DNA of 37,269 nucleotides from a virus, in IMG/VR virus record IMGVR_UViG_3300049919_000146, positions 1 to 37,269 of that record; one strand, 5' to 3'. A program made the translations under genes and the position numbers. The notes under the pieces were generated by a model that was not told the origin of the DNA, did no database searches, and saw only the letters and a program-made list of their open reading frames with translations. Shown here piece by piece: positions 27,838-34,660 of the stretch. Every line of letters starts with the position of its first letter. The first letter of the stretch is position 1.

Positions 27838-28025
27838 TAACCCCAAATGAATACATTGCTTATAGTCACAGCATTCAACAGGCCCTTAATGAAATGCACG
27901 AATTATTCTGGGTAAATGAAGATGCAGCCATGGAAAAAGTTTCCGAGATATTAAAAAGAAATATTATGGAAAGGTTTGAGGAAAAACGTGCCAATGAAAT
28001 CCTAGGATTAAAGCATGAAGATTAA
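27834..28025 (+). CDS. Small acidic helical protein
   Basis: This is a 63-residue protein joined to the preceding gene by ATGA. It is helical throughout (YIAYSHSIQQALNEMHELFW, AAMEKVSEILKRNIMERFEE). It overlaps the next gene by 11 bases. Unrecognised; position suggests it belongs with the replication genes. Confidence 0.6.
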   Translation: MITPNEYIAYSHSIQQALNEMHELFWVNEDAAMEKVSEILKRNIMERFEEKRANEILGLKHED

Positions 28026-28419
28026 TCGTAAGTATCATCATTATGAAAAATGGGAAGACTTTCAATCCGGCATGTATGCGAACGTTGAAACAAAAAATAA
28101 AAGTGAAGCTTTCAAGAAGTGCCTTGAGTTTATTAAGTCAGATGCCTTTTTTAATGCAATGGAGAGGGTGATTTATGAATGGCCTTTTTCATGTGAGCAA
28201 AACCTGACAAATATAAACTCGAACCGTGTGGCATGGATTGGCCAGGCCGCTTGCACTATAGCGCTTGCAATCCCTGAAGATATTACCAGACAAGCATGGG
28301 GAAACCTGGAAAAGTCAAAGAAGCGAAAAGCAAACCGAAAAGCAGAGTTAGTGATTTCAAAATGGGAGAAAATGTATGCAGGACAAAGTTGGCAAATACG
28401 TTTCAAGCTGGATGCTTAA
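28015..28419 (+). CDS. Conserved phage protein upstream of the IbrA/IbrB-like genes
   Basis: This is a 134-residue protein. The segment VIYEWPFSCEQNLTNINSNR (about 52-71) followed by VAWIGQAACTIALAIPED and TRQAWG (about 72-95) is one I know from short proteins that accompany PAPS-reductase/ParB-like gene pairs in phages. It is helical in its second half. It probably works in the same module as the following genes. Its molecular activity is not known to me. Confidence 0.65.
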   Translation: MKINRKYHHYEKWEDFQSGMYANVETKNKSEAFKKCLEFIKSDAFFNAMERVIYEWPFSCEQNLTNINSNRVAWIGQAACTIALAIPEDITRQAWGNLEKSKKRKANRKAELVISKWEKMYAGQSWQIRFKLDA

Positions 28420-28615
28420 GGGTTACGAAAATGGAATACCCGACGAGGCCGACCCAAGACTTGAAGGCATGGGACTTGCACCTTCATATAGACAAATTTG
28501 CCGGGCCATTATCAAAAACGATGCGGCCCTTACCTCGCTTGGTTTTAGTCGGCCTAAATGCGAAACTTATTCATTCTTAAAAAAAATTGAGATTGAAGCA
28601 AGGGAGAAAAAATGA
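28376..28615 (+). CDS. Free-standing copy of the IbrA C-terminal motif
   Basis: This is a 79-residue protein with GGGAG eight bases before its ATG; it overlaps the previous gene by 44 bases. The core NGIPDEADPRLE (19-30) and LAPSYRQICRAIIKNDAALT (34-53) then LGFS matches the C-terminus of the 438-residue protein coded next, where the line reads IPTYKRMCVCIMKNDHLCKY followed by MGFS. The shared pattern is P(S/T)Y(R/K)..C..I.KND......GFS. From memory the GIPDEAD-x-L-E plus this pattern is the normal end of DUF3440/IbrA proteins. So a normally fused module exists here as its own gene, joined to IbrA by ATGA. Confidence 0.75.
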   Translation: MQDKVGKYVSSWMLKGYENGIPDEADPRLEGMGLAPSYRQICRAIIKNDAALTSLGFSRPKCETYSFLKKIEIEAREKK

Positions 28616-29928
28616 ATGTTTTTGAAGCATCCGAAGAACGGATAGGAAAGATTTTTAATGAATTTGATAATGTCTATGTTTCATTTAGTGGAGGCAAAGA
28701 TTCCGGAGTATTGCTTAATCTCTGTATTGACTACATAAGAAAAAATCTTCCAGGTCGCAAGCTTGGAGTTTTTCATATTGATTACGAAGCTCAATATCAA
28801 ATGACTACGGACTACGTTGATCTGGAATTTTCAAAAAATAAAGACATTATTGAACCATATAGGATTTGCCTCCCTGTCGCTGCCAAGTGTGCAACGTCAA
28901 TGTACTCTGACCACTGGATCCCATGGGACAAAAAGGCCAGTGACCTTTGGGTTAGAGAGTTACCCAAAGAATCAATCAATGAAGATAACCATGAGTTCGG
29001 CTGGTTCGTTAAAGGCATATGGGACTATGACCTTCAAGTGAAGTTCTCTGAATGGATACATGAAAAGAAAAAAGCAAAACGAACCGCTTGCCTTGTTGGA
29101 ATTAGAACCGATGAATCACTTAATAGGTGGCGCGCAATTCATAGTGATAAAAACAAAAATAAATTTAAAGAACTATCATGGACACTTAAGCTTGAAAAAA
29201 ACATCTATAATGCCTACCCGATATATGACTGGAAGGTAGAAGATGTGTGGATAGCAAACGCAAAACTGGAATGGGACTACAATAAACTATATGACCTTTT
29301 TCATAAGGCCGGTGTGCCAATTGGTAAACAGAGGGTCGCAAGTCCTTTCCATGATTCTGGAATAGAAAATCTAAAATTGTATAAAGTTATAGACCCTAAA
29401 AATTGGGGTAAAATGATAGGCCGTACAAATGGAGTTAATTTCGCTGGCCTCTACGGAGGCACCACTGCAATGGGGTGGAAAAATATTAAACTACCAAAGG
29501 GTCATACATGGAAAAGTTATATGGAGTTTTTACTCTCTACTCTTCCAAAGGAGACCGCCGATGGCTACCGAAAAAAGCTTGCGATTAGCCAGGAATTTTG
29601 GCGCAAAACTGGCGGATGCCTCTCGAAAGATACGATAAAAAAACTTAAAGACCACAAGATTAAATTCTCTAAGGGTAAAGGAACCAAACGTCACACTAAC
29701 AAGATACCCATAACAATGGAATACCTGGACGATATAGACATCGATGAGTTTCAGTTAATACCGACCTATAAAAGAATGTGTGTTTGTATTATGAAGAATG
29801 ACCATCTTTGCAAGTACATGGGGTTCTCACTCAATAAGACAGAGACCGAGTTAAGGGAAAGGGCCGAAAAAGACTTTAAGAATACTTTTAAAGAGATTAA
29901 GAAAAAATATAAGGAGATCAAAGAATGA
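28612..29928 (+). CDS. IbrA-like PAPS-reductase-family protein
   Basis: This is a 438-residue protein. The adenylyl-binding P-loop VSFSGGKDSGVLLNLCID is at about 23-40, with SGGKDS at 26-31. A second conserved block GIRTDESLNRWRAI lies at 163-176, followed by WTLKLEKNIYNAYPIYDWKV. These place it in the PAPS reductase/ATP pyrophosphatase superfamily, DUF3440 (IbrA) branch. The C-terminal about 55 residues hold the P(S/T)YKRMC...KND...GFS motif shared with the small protein upstream. IbrA and IbrB regulate eib genes in E. coli; pairs of this kind in phages lack an agreed role. It overlaps the ParB-like gene by ATGA. Confidence 0.85.
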   Translation: MNVFEASEERIGKIFNEFDNVYVSFSGGKDSGVLLNLCIDYIRKNLPGRKLGVFHIDYEAQYQMTTDYVDLEFSKNKDIIEPYRICLPVAAKCATSMYSDHWIPWDKKASDLWVRELPKESINEDNHEFGWFVKGIWDYDLQVKFSEWIHEKKKAKRTACLVGIRTDESLNRWRAIHSDKNKNKFKELSWTLKLEKNIYNAYPIYDWKVEDVWIANAKLEWDYNKLYDLFHKAGVPIGKQRVASPFHDSGIENLKLYKVIDPKNWGKMIGRTNGVNFAGLYGGTTAMGWKNIKLPKGHTWKSYMEFLLSTLPKETADGYRKKLAISQEFWRKTGGCLSKDTIKKLKDHKIKFSKGKGTKRHTNKIPITMEYLDDIDIDEFQLIPTYKRMCVCIMKNDHLCKYMGFSLNKTETELRERAEKDFKNTFKEIKKKYKEIKE

Positions 29929-30440
29929 AAACATTTATGAGTCCCGTTTATCATGTTGTTGGAGTTCCAGTAGATAAAATCAGGGCCAACACCTACAACC
30001 CAAACAGCGTAGCGCCTCCTGAAATGGAATTACTTGAAGTATCCATATGGGAGGACGGCTACACGATGCCAGTGGTTTGCTATTACATAGAAGAAGAAGA
30101 CGTTTACGAAATAGTAGATGGGTATCATAGATATACGACACTAAAAACAAGTAAAAGAATTTTTGAGCGAGAAAGAGGCATGTTGCCAGTCGTGGTTATT
30201 CAAAAAGACCCATCTAATCGAATGGCCTCAACGGTAAGACATAACAGAGCAAGGGGTTCTCACTCAATAGACTTGATGTCTAATATTGTTTCCGAATTAA
30301 CTAAGGCAGGAATGAGTGACGCCTGGATTCTTAAACACGTAGGAATGGACAAGGATGAACTCTTAAGGCTTAAGCAAATTACAGGAATAGCAGGGTTGTT
30401 TAAAGATAAAGAATTTAGCGAAGCATGGGACGAGACATGA
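29925..30440 (+). CDS. IbrB-like ParB-domain protein
   Basis: This is a 171-residue protein. The ParB/Srx-like fold is visible: VPVDKIRANTYNPNSVAPPE (14-33), then a box with VDGYHRY (about 65-71) corresponding to the ParB GERR position, then RARGSHSIDLMSNIV (105-119) and a small HTH-like end (AGMSDAWILKHVGMDKDEL). In the family this half pairs with the PAPS-reductase-like IbrA. It is coupled to IbrA in front and to the next small gene behind by ATGA overlaps. It is likely to bind nucleotide and possibly DNA; no partition gene parA is present. Confidence 0.85.
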   Translation: MKTFMSPVYHVVGVPVDKIRANTYNPNSVAPPEMELLEVSIWEDGYTMPVVCYYIEEEDVYEIVDGYHRYTTLKTSKRIFERERGMLPVVVIQKDPSNRMASTVRHNRARGSHSIDLMSNIVSELTKAGMSDAWILKHVGMDKDELLRLKQITGIAGLFKDKEFSEAWDET

Positions 30441-31204: not shown

Positions 31205-31573
31205 ATGTCGAAAGAAATTGAAGTGATTAGCATTAATGGAGTTGATTATGTCAAAAAAGACGCGATCAAGTCTTTTCCCCAGAAAGATGGTTTAAAGTAC
31301 GCCATCGTAAGAACTTATTCGGCAGGAGTTTTTGCCGGATATATCGAATCGCAAAATGGTCAAGAGGTTATAATGATTAATGCTAGAAGATTATGGCAAT
31401 GGGCCGGTGCTGCCTCTCTTTCTCAGTTTGCAATGGAAGGAACTTCAGCACCAAAAAGCTGTAAGTTTCCATGTGAGGTGGATCGCGTAAAACTTATGCA
31501 GGCAATAGAGATTCTGGATGCTACACAAAAATGTAAAGAATCTATTGATGGTGTCCCTGTATGGAAAGCGTAG
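31205..31573 (+). CDS. DUF6948-like phage protein
   Basis: This is a 122-residue protein. AIVRTYSAGVFAGYIESQNG (about 37-56) then ARRLWQWAGAASLSQFAMEG (61-80) and SCKFPCEVDRVKLMQAIEIL (about 85-104) form the conserved line of a small, widespread phage family that I remember as DUF6948. Its function is unknown. It is preceded by AAGGAG, and its stop overlaps the start of the Gly-X repeat ORF. This family often lies beside such a repeat ORF in other phages as I recall; that should be checked. Confidence 0.75.
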   Translation: MSKEIEVISINGVDYVKKDAIKSFPQKDGLKYAIVRTYSAGVFAGYIESQNGQEVIMINARRLWQWAGAASLSQFAMEGTSAPKSCKFPCEVDRVKLMQAIEILDATQKCKESIDGVPVWKA

Positions 31574-31737
31574 TTAATATTGGCCATGGCTCTGGCGATG
31601 GCTCTGGCTATGGCTATGGCTCTGGCTCTGGCGATGGCTCTGGCGATGGCTCTGGCGATGGCTCTGGCTCTGGCTATGGCTATGGCCATGGCTCTGGCTA
31701 TGGCGATGGCTCTGGCTATGGCTCTGGCCATGGCTAA
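31561..31737 (+). CDS. Gly-X repeat protein (58 residues)
   Basis: ATG 31561 lies inside the previous gene's last codons and opens MESVVNI, then 25 Gly-X pairs with X drawn only from Ser, Asp, Tyr and His, then a final Gly before the TAA. Every Gly is GGC and every X codon is TCT, GAT, TAT or CAT. The frame stays open to the end of the array. No strong ribosome-binding site precedes it, so translation probably depends on coupling. It has no obvious fold; its Asp/His/Tyr content could bind metal or phase-separate. The opposite strand gives an Ala-X ORF that lacks support. Confidence 0.5.
   Translation: MESVVNIGHGSGDGSGYGYGSGSGDGSGDGSGDGSGSGYGYGHGSGYGDGSGYGSGHG
31582..31734 (+). repeat. Hexanucleotide array GGC-NNT, about 25 units
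   Basis: The array is a run of GGC followed by TCT, GAT, TAT or CAT. Unit length is exactly six bases throughout and no unit is out of register. Such arrays expand and shrink by slippage, so length probably varies between relatives. Confidence 0.9.
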
Positions 31738-31830: not shown

Positions 31831-31971
31831 ATGAAGTTTACACTAATTTACTTATGGCTACTTTCGATACTTGGATCGATCTTTCTTGGTCATGAAATTT
31901 CGCTCATGTTTCCAGCTAAGAAAGAGCAAGGATACGATTTTAAGAACACATTGCATGCGTTTAGAGAATGA
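31831..31971 (+). CDS. 46-residue membrane peptide
   Basis: This ORF starts at ATG 31831 after AAGAGGG (seven bases) and is MKFTLIYLWLLSILGSIFLG for its first 20 residues, one transmembrane helix, then a charged tail (AKKEQGYDFKNTLHAFRE). Its stop overlaps the methyltransferase ATG (ATGA). The strong ribosome-binding site and coupling support it. The methyltransferase itself has only a weak site, so this peptide may be what delivers ribosomes to it. Function unknown. Confidence 0.65.
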   Translation: MKFTLIYLWLLSILGSIFLGHEISLMFPAKKEQGYDFKNTLHAFRE

Positions 31972-32873
31972 AAAAAGGAAAGTTAAATGGAATCAGCTTA
32001 TTTACTGGATATGCAGGAATTGACCTTGCCCTTACCGATTACGTTAGACCCTTGCTCTATTGCGAAATCGAAAGATACGCTCAGGGAATTTTGCTTTCAA
32101 GAATGGCGGACAATGCAATCGATTTCGCTCCAATCTGGGGTGACGTTAGAACTTTGGACGGAAACCAATTTAAAGGCCTGGTTGACATTATTTACGGGGG
32201 ATTTCCCTGCCAGGACATTAGCGTTGCAGGAAAGGGCGCAGGACTGGAAGGAAAGCGAAGCGGTCTTTTTTTCGAAATCATCCGAATTTGCAAAGAATCA
32301 TCCCCTCAATTTATTTTCCTTGAAAACGTGCCCGCAATTAGAACCAGAGGAGCTCTCGAAGTGCAAGAAGCTCTGGCCTCAATCGGGTATGATTGTCGAT
32401 GGACTACTTTATCCGCTTCCGAAGTTGGCGCAAATCACAAAAGAGAAAGATGGTTTTGTCTTGCTACCAACACCAATAACGGTAGACAACGGAAGTCGAT
32501 TCAACAAGTCGGCGAGCTCAGGAGCAAAGAATCGGCCCACATTGGGAGCAATGGCAAAGTTCGAATTATGGCCAACTCCGACAGTTTGCGGAAACTACCA
32601 GAACAAGAATGGAATGAAAGGACTTGCTACGAAAGTGAAGGAGTCGGATACGACTCCTTGTGCGAGAGACTGGAAGGACAACAACTCTCCATCAGAACAC
32701 AGAAGAAACACACCGAAATTAGCGACTCACGCTGGTGGCAAACTGAACCCGACGTGGGTCGAGTGGCTAATGGGGTTGAATTCAGAGTGGACAGAATTAA
32801 GGCCTTGGGTAACGGAGTGGTTCCTTTGCAAGTCAAAACGGCGTTTGAAAAACTAATAGGAATTTCGGAATGA
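31968..32873 (+). CDS. DNA cytosine-5 methyltransferase
   Basis: This is a 301-residue enzyme that transfers a methyl group from S-adenosylmethionine to cytosine C5. Motif I is ISLFTGYAGIDLA (9-21), with the first Gly of the usual FxGxG displaced. Motif IV is GGFPCQDIS with catalytic Cys81. Motif VI is FLENV (117-121), motif VIII is KRERWFCLA (158-166), and motif X is RVDRIKALGNGVVPLQV near 275. The length is short for a Dcm, so the target-recognition part (about 170-265) is small. A second frame is open across nearly all of the gene. It probably protects phage DNA from host restriction; no matching nuclease is seen. Confidence 0.92.
   Translation: MKKGKLNGISLFTGYAGIDLALTDYVRPLLYCEIERYAQGILLSRMADNAIDFAPIWGDVRTLDGNQFKGLVDIIYGGFPCQDISVAGKGAGLEGKRSGLFFEIIRICKESSPQFIFLENVPAIRTRGALEVQEALASIGYDCRWTTLSASEVGANHKRERWFCLATNTNNGRQRKSIQQVGELRSKESAHIGSNGKVRIMANSDSLRKLPEQEWNERTCYESEGVGYDSLCERLEGQQLSIRTQKKHTEISDSRWWQTEPDVGRVANGVEFRVDRIKALGNGVVPLQVKTAFEKLIGISE
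31987..32856 (+). CDS. Second long ORF overprinted on the methyltransferase gene (+1 frame)
   Basis: This is a 289-codon frame inside the methyltransferase gene. Its ATG follows AAGGAAA by about five bases, a site provided by codons 2-5 of the first gene. It contains blocks I know from stand-alone phage and bacterial proteins annotated near Dcm: GDFPARTLALQERAQDWKES (71-90), WPQSGMIVDGLLYPLPKLAQ (130-149), WPTPTVCGNYQNKNGMKGLA (195-214) and GKLNPTWVEWLMG (251-263). The block LNPTWVEWLMG is read from the same bases as EPDVGRVANGVE of the methyltransferase, and FPARTLALQ from the same bases as FPCQDISVAG. The function is unknown to me. Confidence 0.65.
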   Translation: MESAYLLDMQELTLPLPITLDPCSIAKSKDTLREFCFQEWRTMQSISLQSGVTLELWTETNLKAWLTLFTGDFPARTLALQERAQDWKESEAVFFSKSSEFAKNHPLNLFSLKTCPQLEPEELSKCKKLWPQSGMIVDGLLYPLPKLAQITKEKDGFVLLPTPITVDNGSRFNKSASSGAKNRPTLGAMAKFELWPTPTVCGNYQNKNGMKGLATKVKESDTTPCARDWKDNNSPSEHRRNTPKLATHAGGKLNPTWVEWLMGLNSEWTELRPWVTEWFLCKSKRRLKN

Positions 32874-33769: not shown

Positions 33770-34660
33770 ATGAAAACAATAGTAATTAAGACACAAGAAG
33801 AATTAGATTTATTACCATTAAAATTTGATGAATACACGGTAATTGAAATTAGATCAACTTCTAACATTTGTGTGAAACAAGCTAGGGAAAATTCCAGGGT
33901 TGAAGCTAGGGGAAATTCCAGGGTTGAAGCTTGGGGAAATTCCAGGGTTATAGCTAGGGAGAATTCCAGGGTTATAGCTAGGGAAAATTCCAGTGTTGAA
34001 GCTTGGGGAAATTCCAGGGTTGAAGCTAGGGGAAATTCCAGGGTTATAGCTTGGGAAAATTCCAGGGTTAAAGCTTTCTTGTGCGCTACTGTCTTTGTAT
34101 TTTCAATCTATGTGACAGTTAAAAAACTTTTGGATAATTCTCATCTTGTTTACAAAAAAGCCGACTGTAAAAGACCGGAGCAAGTAGATTCATCGGCAAA
34201 GATCACTAAGTTTAAAGACTTAATCACACCCACTTTTGAGCAATGGTTAGAGCGTGGTTACGTTGTTGCTGATGGCATAACTCAAAAGCTTGTCTCGAAA
34301 AAAACAATTGGCGAAGTCACAATCTTTGAAACCACTGACTTTTTTGAAAAAGAAAAAGCGTATGCTGCCAAGCTTGGTAATAAGTTTGCTCACGGTAAGA
34401 CAATCGAAGAGGCAAAAAATGATCTTCGGTACAAACTTTCCGACAGAGATACCTTGGAATATAAATCATGGGACATTGTAGATCAAAAACCAATTGATGA
34501 AATGATCGAAGCCTATATGGCCATAACTGGAGCTTGTTCGTTTGGGACTAGGCAGTTTTGCGAGTCACACGTTTTAAAGTCTGAATACTCTCCAAAGGAT
34601 ATTATTGAGTTAACAAAAAATAAATACGGCAACGAAGCCTTTACGGCTTTTTGGAATTAA
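33770..34660 (+). CDS. Repeat-bearing (beta-helix-like) phage protein
   Basis: This is a 296-residue protein with AAAAGGAAAAT before its ATG. Residues 1-37 are a small alpha/beta opening (MKTIVIKTQEELDLLPLKFD). Residues 38-101 are eight copies of an eight-residue unit of the form A(R/W)(E/G)NS(R/S)V(E/I/K), expected to stack as a parallel beta-helix. A hydrophobic segment follows (LCATVFVFSIYVTV). The C-terminal domain (about 140-296) has FEQWLERGYVVADGITQKLV, NKFAHGKTIEEAKNDLRYKL and ITGACSFGTRQFCE, a block I know from phage proteins with such repeats. Function unknown. Confidence 0.75.
   Translation: MKTIVIKTQEELDLLPLKFDEYTVIEIRSTSNICVKQARENSRVEARGNSRVEAWGNSRVIARENSRVIARENSSVEAWGNSRVEARGNSRVIAWENSRVKAFLCATVFVFSIYVTVKKLLDNSHLVYKKADCKRPEQVDSSAKITKFKDLITPTFEQWLERGYVVADGITQKLVSKKTIGEVTIFETTDFFEKEKAYAAKLGNKFAHGKTIEEAKNDLRYKLSDRDTLEYKSWDIVDQKPIDEMIEAYMAITGACSFGTRQFCESHVLKSEYSPKDIIELTKNKYGNEAFTAFWN
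33881..34072 (+). repeat. Eight in-frame 24-bp tandem repeats
   Basis: The unit reads GCT AGG GAA AAT TCC AGG GTT GAA with single-base variants, mostly R/W at codon 2, E/G at codon 3 and E/I/K at codon 8. It fills exactly 192 bases in register with the gene. The high identity between units indicates recent expansion or gene conversion. Confidence 0.9.

Follow-up and report, generated by a model that had tools for sequence, protein, structure and literature searches.

Closest described systems

IbrA and IbrB are protein families named in E. coli for a co-activator role. The stretch of DNA analysed here, hereafter the window, is a virus record of 37,269 bases (IMGVR_UViG_3300049919_000146) and encodes members of both families in a locus of four genes: gp134 (28015–28419), a 79-residue free-standing copy of the IbrA C-terminal domain (28376–28615; hereafter the free domain), IbrA (28612–29928), and IbrB (29925–30440). 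All four genes lie on the plus strand and overlap in series—the 79-residue open reading frame (ORF) starts inside gp134, and its stop overlaps the start of IbrA—which is consistent with translational coupling. An earlier note on this DNA, made from the letters alone, had placed the module at 28376–30440; the start of gp134 precedes this interval. The picture drawn there of one fused and one free domain copy in four coupled genes is borne out by the overlapping ORFs and the homology described below.

The IbrA/IbrB pair of E. coli phage PhiR5_2, like YbdN/YbdM of E. coli K-12 (excerpts of PMC9068703), has these two core families encoded side by side. In PhiR5_2 (locus L100; survey loci are given as L numbers), a domain of GIPDE type is fused to IbrA, whereas the window combines an IbrA lacking GIPDE with a free domain. 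IbrAs carrying the GIPDE-type domain as their own tail are termed canonical, those resembling the IbrA of the window are termed window-type.

Mycobacterium phage Gaia, which is cultivable, encodes IbrA (gene 103), a ParB-like protein (104), gp134 (106), and the free domain (107). Gaia differs from the window by the order IbrA–IbrB–gp134–free domain and by the extra gene 105 in between. An ectoine-synthase-like region is annotated as part of gene 104, and genes 106 and 107 are annotated as hypothetical. Pseudoalteromonas phage XCL1123 carries IbrA, a ParB-like protein, gp134 (QGJ84331), and the free domain in one run but differs from the window by a gene annotated as ectoine synthase/ParB beside IbrB. 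Its free-domain ORF (L097:4932–5237) has no annotation in the record. In Gaia-type loci, IbrB has an ectoine-synthase-like cupin as its neighbour or, by annotation, as a fused part (L158:4035–4421, PF06339, E = 6.4e-38; L098:3384–4280). Microcystis phage Mwe-JY13 represents the canonical three-gene type with adjacent IbrB, gp134, and IbrA, differing from the window by the GIPDE-type domain being fused to IbrA. The gp134 member of this phage (PP438406.1 26942–27367, L099:2589–3014) is annotated as "ParB/sulfiredoxin", apparently a mis-annotation. Further named relatives are Mycobacterium phage Nebkiss of the free type and Pseudomonas phage Amjad_SA of the canonical type.

The proteins DndC, SspD, and BrxP of phosphorothioate systems feature, like IbrA, a PP-loop domain resembling 3′-phosphoadenosine 5′-phosphosulfate (PAPS) reductase, and PAPS-reductase homologues within phosphorothioation systems are described in portions of PMC12839542 and PMC11437467. 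DndB is assigned to the ParB superfamily (excerpt of PMC10853773). The similarity of these proteins to IbrA is, however, partial and weak, and no Dnd or Ssp partner occurs among the five window proteins scanned. A literature search, which reached few subscription papers and preprints, returned neither a description of gp134 or the free domain nor a demonstrated function for the IbrA/IbrB module in phages. The IbrA and IbrB families themselves are known.

The free domain compared with the tail of IbrA

The 79-residue protein shows, by profile and pairwise matches, homology to the domain that ends DUF3440/IbrA proteins. It matches positions 139–179 of the 182 positions of the DUF3440 profile (PF11922) with E = 1.8e-4 and 21.8 bits, which is below the curated gathering cut-off of 25, and it is matched by phrog_15645 (E = 1.5e-7), which also matches IbrA. 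With window IbrA as query against its own virus record, the small ORF is found at 38% identity over 40 residues (E = 3.7e-4). With a hidden Markov model (HMM) built from the free small proteins as query, E is ~1e-18 to 1e-23 for canonical IbrA C-termini and 1e-5 for the C-terminus of window IbrA. These four lines of matches rule out a chance repeat. The motif that the earlier note had seen in both proteins is hence present in both above chance, as PSYRQICRAIIKNDAALTSLGFS in the free domain (28481–28549) and as PTYKRMCVCIMKNDHLCKYMGFS in IbrA (29761–29829), the latter including the conserved C390 and C400.

Canonical IbrAs have a length of about 400 residues and end in ...W..RGYENGIPDEA..LE...PSWRRVCKSLLRND..CKGLGF. 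The free proteins comprise the same domain from the first helix onward, GIPDE included, which in the window lies in the segment NGIPDEAD (28430–28453). Window IbrA (438 residues) keeps the helix and the motif but carries an insert of ~35 residues in place of the canonical GIPDE loop (approximately residues 335–369, 29614–29718). The statement in the earlier note that NGIPDEAD belongs to the C-terminal region of DUF3440 proteins is accurate for canonical members, whereas the IbrA of the window itself has lost GIPDE.

The following counts refer to distinct sequences where so stated, i.e., with identical sequences collapsed; gene-order counts are uncollapsed. Some loci are one contig reached by different queries and were merged only in the distinct counts; two copies of the window (L001 and L002) are excluded from locus counts, and loci truncated by a contig end are named alongside their counts. 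As counted by pattern, 54 of the 56 distinct free domains have the [IL]P[DEQ] loop, compared with 47 of 50 distinct canonical C-termini and 3 of 91 distinct window-type C-termini, the last set including as one row the N-terminal, free copy of a fusion protein (L059). The cysteine after "ND.." shows a different distribution: It occurs in 83 of the 91 distinct window-type and 40 of the 50 distinct canonical C-termini and in none of the 56 distinct free domains, which carry Leu (47) or Phe (2) or are unscored by the pattern (7). In a 52-row alignment, the most conserved cysteines of IbrA are C86 (45/52), C390 (41/52), and C400 (46/52). The two copies are, hence, non-equivalent on alignment—the free one with the GIPDE loop and without the conserved cysteine, the fused one with the insert. 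A free copy that retains the fold-type motif without the cysteine would more likely serve in binding than in catalysis. A simple split of one IbrA gene is ruled out, since window-type IbrA retains its own tail and the conserved cysteine.

Purifying selection acts on the free domain, with a median ratio of nonsynonymous to synonymous substitution rates (dN/dS) of 0.26 and a maximum of 0.67 for the 61 pairs among 36 chosen sequences that passed the divergence filter.

The locus L059 joins the free domain, in N-terminal position, and IbrA in one ORF of 526 residues, for which a structure was predicted. The alignment for this model contained IbrA rows only, since MAFFT had aligned the free proteins with the C-terminal one of the two copies. 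The model has a predicted local distance difference test score (pLDDT) of 80.8 overall; in its free-domain part, covered by a single sequence, the score is mostly 41–71, i.e., of low confidence. In the prediction, the helices of the two domain copies follow one another in a similar order, with no sign, at the low confidence of the free part, of the different folds that would have spoken against the earlier note. Because of this, the fold identity of the two copies rests on their sequence homology.

Other fusions of the free domain occur. At L139:4074–5333, a free GIPDE domain is fused in frame and N-terminally to a match of a DNA polymerase processivity factor (phrog_947, E = 5.3e-35). This is a single contig and could be an assembly effect; if real, the fusion would link the putative adapter discussed below to a replication clamp. 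At L111:5401–6051, a free GIPDE domain bears an additional ~140 C-terminal residues with no PHROG match, which appear GNAT-like by eye only.

The gp134 family and its linkage to the GIPDE domain

The protein gp134 (134 residues) features the motifs WED..GM, W..SCE.NLT, NR.AWIGHAACC, and TR.AW. Its predicted structure is all-helical, with a pLDDT of 93.8 and a predicted template modelling score of 0.85. A comparison of this model with the PDB gave no match (best Foldseek E = 1.8, best VIA-align Z = 3.7), which in itself does not establish a new fold, and one viral model is clearly related to it (A0A649V0K8, E = 2.1e-6). Window gp134 has no convincing match in Pfam, PHROG, NCBIfam, or PADLOC, and neither have 32 family members in Pfam and PHROGs. 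A search of viral contigs by alignment confirmed at least 594 places, of which the best 80 were kept; gp134 is hence a sizeable unannotated family. Scans of genome contigs with the 79-residue protein and gp134 returned no relative.

The genes for gp134 and the GIPDE domain are closely linked. In a set of 126 gp134 ORFs (106 distinct), the next gene encodes a free GIPDE domain in 67 cases, an IbrA with a C-terminal GIPDE domain in 54, and an N-terminal fusion of the GIPDE domain to IbrA in one, adding up to 122 of 126; for the other four (L113, L120, L142, and L177), the contig runs out within 0–917 bases. Of 146 distinct gp134 sequences in a later set, 135 belong to loci with IbrA, IbrB, and the domain, and in each of the 11 exceptions a contig end sits where the absent gene would be expected. 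Starting from IbrA instead, 75 loci reached by the IbrA query alone divide into 24 with both gp134 and the GIPDE domain, 50 with neither, and one with the domain only (L025), which is truncated at the contig start. The linkage of the small gene to IbrA and IbrB in relatives, on which the reading of the earlier note depended, is strong throughout this survey. By gene linkage, the free copy belongs with gp134, which the earlier note had named simply as a 134-residue partner.

The gene orders underline this pairing. With A for IbrA, B for IbrB, G for gp134, and s for the free domain, window-type loci show the orders ABGs (29 loci), GsAB (26), BGsA (6), and AB (46), and canonical loci the orders BGA (55), GAB (49), and AB (6), beside a few further truncated or fused orders. 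Throughout, gp134 directly precedes the gene bearing GIPDE, and A and B swap places around it. A quick maximum-likelihood tree built from 150 IbrAs sets the canonical proteins apart from the window-type ones. The state "free domain" changes six times on this tree, two of these changes (L025 and L177) being losses at contig ends. The succession of gp134 and domain is kept in three four-gene arrangements, and the free domain is found in four IbrA clades that are separate from one another, so that gp134 and the domain travel together. In 26 window-like loci, gp134 distances correlate with those of the free domain at r = 0.72, compared with 0.49 for the IbrA body, 0.42 for the C-terminal part of IbrA itself, and 0.25 for IbrB.

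The core families IbrA and IbrB

Window IbrA consists of a PP-loop (PAPS-reductase-like) N-terminal domain followed by DUF3440. It matches PF11922 over the whole domain (282.9 bits at a cut-off of 25, E = 1.3e-84), phrog_2302 with E = 3.5e-98, and the PAPS_reduct family PF01507 with E = 8.9e-14. A search of PDB sequences gave a best E of 0.46, with lipocalins as hits, i.e., noise. In the L059 model, the best fold match of the PP-loop domain is CysH (Foldseek 6vpu, E = 4.7e-9). The domain also superimposes on human FAD synthase (Z = 16.3, root mean square deviation 2.9, 176 aligned residues) and resembles FMN adenylyltransferase, TilS, and NcsA. The C-terminal domain of IbrA lies outside the region spanned by most of these fold matches.

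A PP-loop motif of SGGKDS type is present in all 52 aligned IbrAs. The motif ECG[ILV]H is the C-terminal catalytic motif of the PAPS reductase CysH; it is found in 0 of the 52. Likewise, the NCBIfam cysH model scores 15.2 bits on window IbrA compared with a cut-off of 165.1. Both results rule out membership in CysH. A "phage sulfate reductase" is unlikely for a PP-loop enzyme that, like IbrA, lacks the catalytic motif of CysH, and the doubt about sulfur reduction voiced in the earlier note thereby gains indirect support. As judged by PADLOC, window IbrA bears weak similarity to DndC (PDLC02661, E = 1.7e-6, residues 146–229 only) and to BrxP (E = 2e-6, part of IbrA only). No PADLOC match to DndB, DndD, DndE, or a cysteine desulfurase was obtained among the five window proteins scanned.

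IbrB (171 residues) features a ParB/sulfiredoxin fold with a DGxHR motif. It matches phrog_2159 (E = 5e-77) and, with 23.5 bits (E = 5.7e-5) below the cut-off of 26.3, PF02195.

Genomic neighbourhood

Upstream of the module, the window carries RecT and a replication-initiation gene, the latter by a weak match. Downstream, at a distance of ~1.5 kb, follows a C5 cytosine DNA methyltransferase (31968–32873, PF00145, E = 9.3e-38), which a long ORF in another frame overlaps. In relatives, the neighbourhoods comprise SF2/SNF2-type helicases as well as recombination and replication genes. Such a DNA-metabolism neighbourhood favours nucleic-acid chemistry without proving it.

Of 55 loci with neither gp134 nor the GIPDE domain, 48 have a helicase cluster no more than four genes away from the module, in most cases right beside it; among the remaining loci, one has such a cluster. 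In the two members scanned, the cluster is of the SNF2/ResIII type; two-gene IbrA–IbrB loci of this kind are, e.g., L060 and L055. The cluster possibly reflects an effect of phage lineage or a functional alternation.

Two tandem repeats are found in the window downstream of the module. A 12-bp repeat, TGGCTATGGCTC, extends over ~13 copies (31581–31736) and is open in several frames, including that of a Gly/Ser/Tyr-rich ORF of 58 residues (31561–31737). A 24-bp repeat with 8.2 copies (33879–34076) lies inside an ORF of 296 residues (33770–34660) and would encode an eight-residue peptide repeat.

Proposed role and alternative explanations

The four genes are best explained as one phage enzyme system, in which gp134 and the 79-residue protein form an accessory subcomplex for IbrA/IbrB; we assign this reading a probability of roughly 0.55. 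IbrA would act as the ATP-using PP-loop enzyme and IbrB as its nucleotide-binding partner of ParB/sulfiredoxin fold, and gp134 together with the free domain would form an adapter or present the substrate. In canonical systems, the GIPDE-type domain forms the tail of IbrA itself, and gp134, whose gene mostly sits immediately upstream of that of IbrA, would dock there. In window-type IbrA, the insert has taken the place of the GIPDE loop and would thereby have removed the docking surface, which the detached domain—after loss of its conserved cysteine—would then supply in trans. In line with this, phages that retain gp134 alongside a window-type IbrA also retain the detached domain. The analysis shows the homology of the two domain copies, the gene linkage and order of gp134 and the GIPDE domain, and purifying selection; from these, physical binding and a role as adapter are inferred. 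More weakly, the chemistry may be suggested to act on a nucleic acid or nucleotide, by activation or by sulfur or amine transfer, and not on PAPS. The preference of the earlier note for a role in modifying nucleic acids or evading defence is plausible from the replication/recombination context, the ParB-like partner, and the remote similarity to DndC and BrxP.

Several observations weigh against this account. Among 63 loci reached by a canonical IbrA query, gp134 is present in 57 and absent from six; four of the latter (L228, L234, L237, and L200) have a canonical IbrA with the GIPDE domain, and the other two (L236 and L238) start right at the edge of their contigs. E. coli phage PhiR5_2 likewise has a canonical IbrA with the GIPDE domain, and no gp134 was found there. 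GIPDE does not require gp134, hence only the reverse dependence holds, and a mutual obligation of the two is ruled out by the six of 63 loci. In addition, when the 51 distinct four-gene loci are all taken together, the distances of gp134 follow those of the IbrA body (r = 0.70) more closely than those of the free domain (0.62), so that the preference for the free domain is confined to the window-like subset.

Compatible with an adapter role, yet on the unlikely side when taken as a specific claim, is a phosphorothioate-like or other hypermodification that protects phage DNA from restriction. IbrA would then act on phage DNA in the manner of DndC or TilS, IbrB as a ParB-like NTPase, and gp134 and the free domain would jointly serve as adapter to DNA or to a sequence. 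The weak DndC and BrxP matches speak for it, as do the neighbouring RecT, methyltransferase, and putative replication-initiation genes, the helicase, recombination, and replication genes in relatives, and the PAPS-reductase homologues of phosphorothioation systems. However, the PADLOC matches cover part of IbrA only, and the Dnd and desulfurase partners are absent among the five proteins scanned. A broader reading, in which the four proteins form an undescribed nucleic-acid- or nucleotide-modifying enzyme of IbrA as PP-loop ATPase and IbrB as NTPase of ParB/sulfiredoxin fold, sometimes with an ectoine-synthase-like cupin, and with gp134–GIPDE as a plug-in adapter moved between IbrA lineages, is offered tentatively and judged rather unlikely as a whole; its product would be a modification not yet seen.

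That the free domain is a mere relic, left over beside gp134 when a window-type IbrA displaced the canonical body, is improbable. In favour of such a displacement, canonical and window-type loci share the order gp134-then-GIPDE-domain, and the free domain starts at about the same position as the domain in canonical IbrA. Nevertheless, the free domain is intact in four separate IbrA clades at a low dN/dS, and its loss of the ND..C cysteine is a uniform and specific change. Displacement may account for the origin of the free domain, but the domain is not in decay.

Somewhat less probable still, the free domain could regulate IbrA or antagonise it competitively by taking the site of its C-terminal domain. 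The free domain keeps the fold-defining motif and lacks the conserved cysteine, but it is gp134, and not IbrA alone, to which it is linked, and a separate copy is absent from canonical loci. Carrying about the same low odds is a function as co-activator of prophage or host transcription. Several phages bear the annotation "co-activator of prophage gene expression", and ybdNM of E. coli K-12 adjoins a LysR regulator, as stated in an excerpt of PMC9068703. The name itself states no mechanism, though; an ATP-using enzyme would be unlikely as a plain co-activator, and the E. coli phage locus examined contains no detectable gp134. An auxiliary metabolic gene for sulfate assimilation, as phage PAPS-reductase homologues are commonly read (portions of PMC10434257 and PMC6145125) and as the PF01507 and CysH fold matches might suggest, is highly improbable given the missing ECG[ILV]H motif, the cysH score, and a regular ParB-like partner that would be unexpected for such an enzyme.

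Implications

The results bear on the naming of DUF3440-type phage genes, which are labelled "PAPS reductase", and on the frequent reading of phage PAPS-reductase homologues—possibly of DUF3440 type in part—as sulfur auxiliary metabolism (portions of PMC10434257 and PMC6145125). A fixed partner family for which the libraries searched hold no model, tied to a specific loop in the tail of IbrA, gives a handle on the function of these enzymes, and cultivable phages, Mycobacterium phage Gaia among them, make the question of function accessible to experiment.

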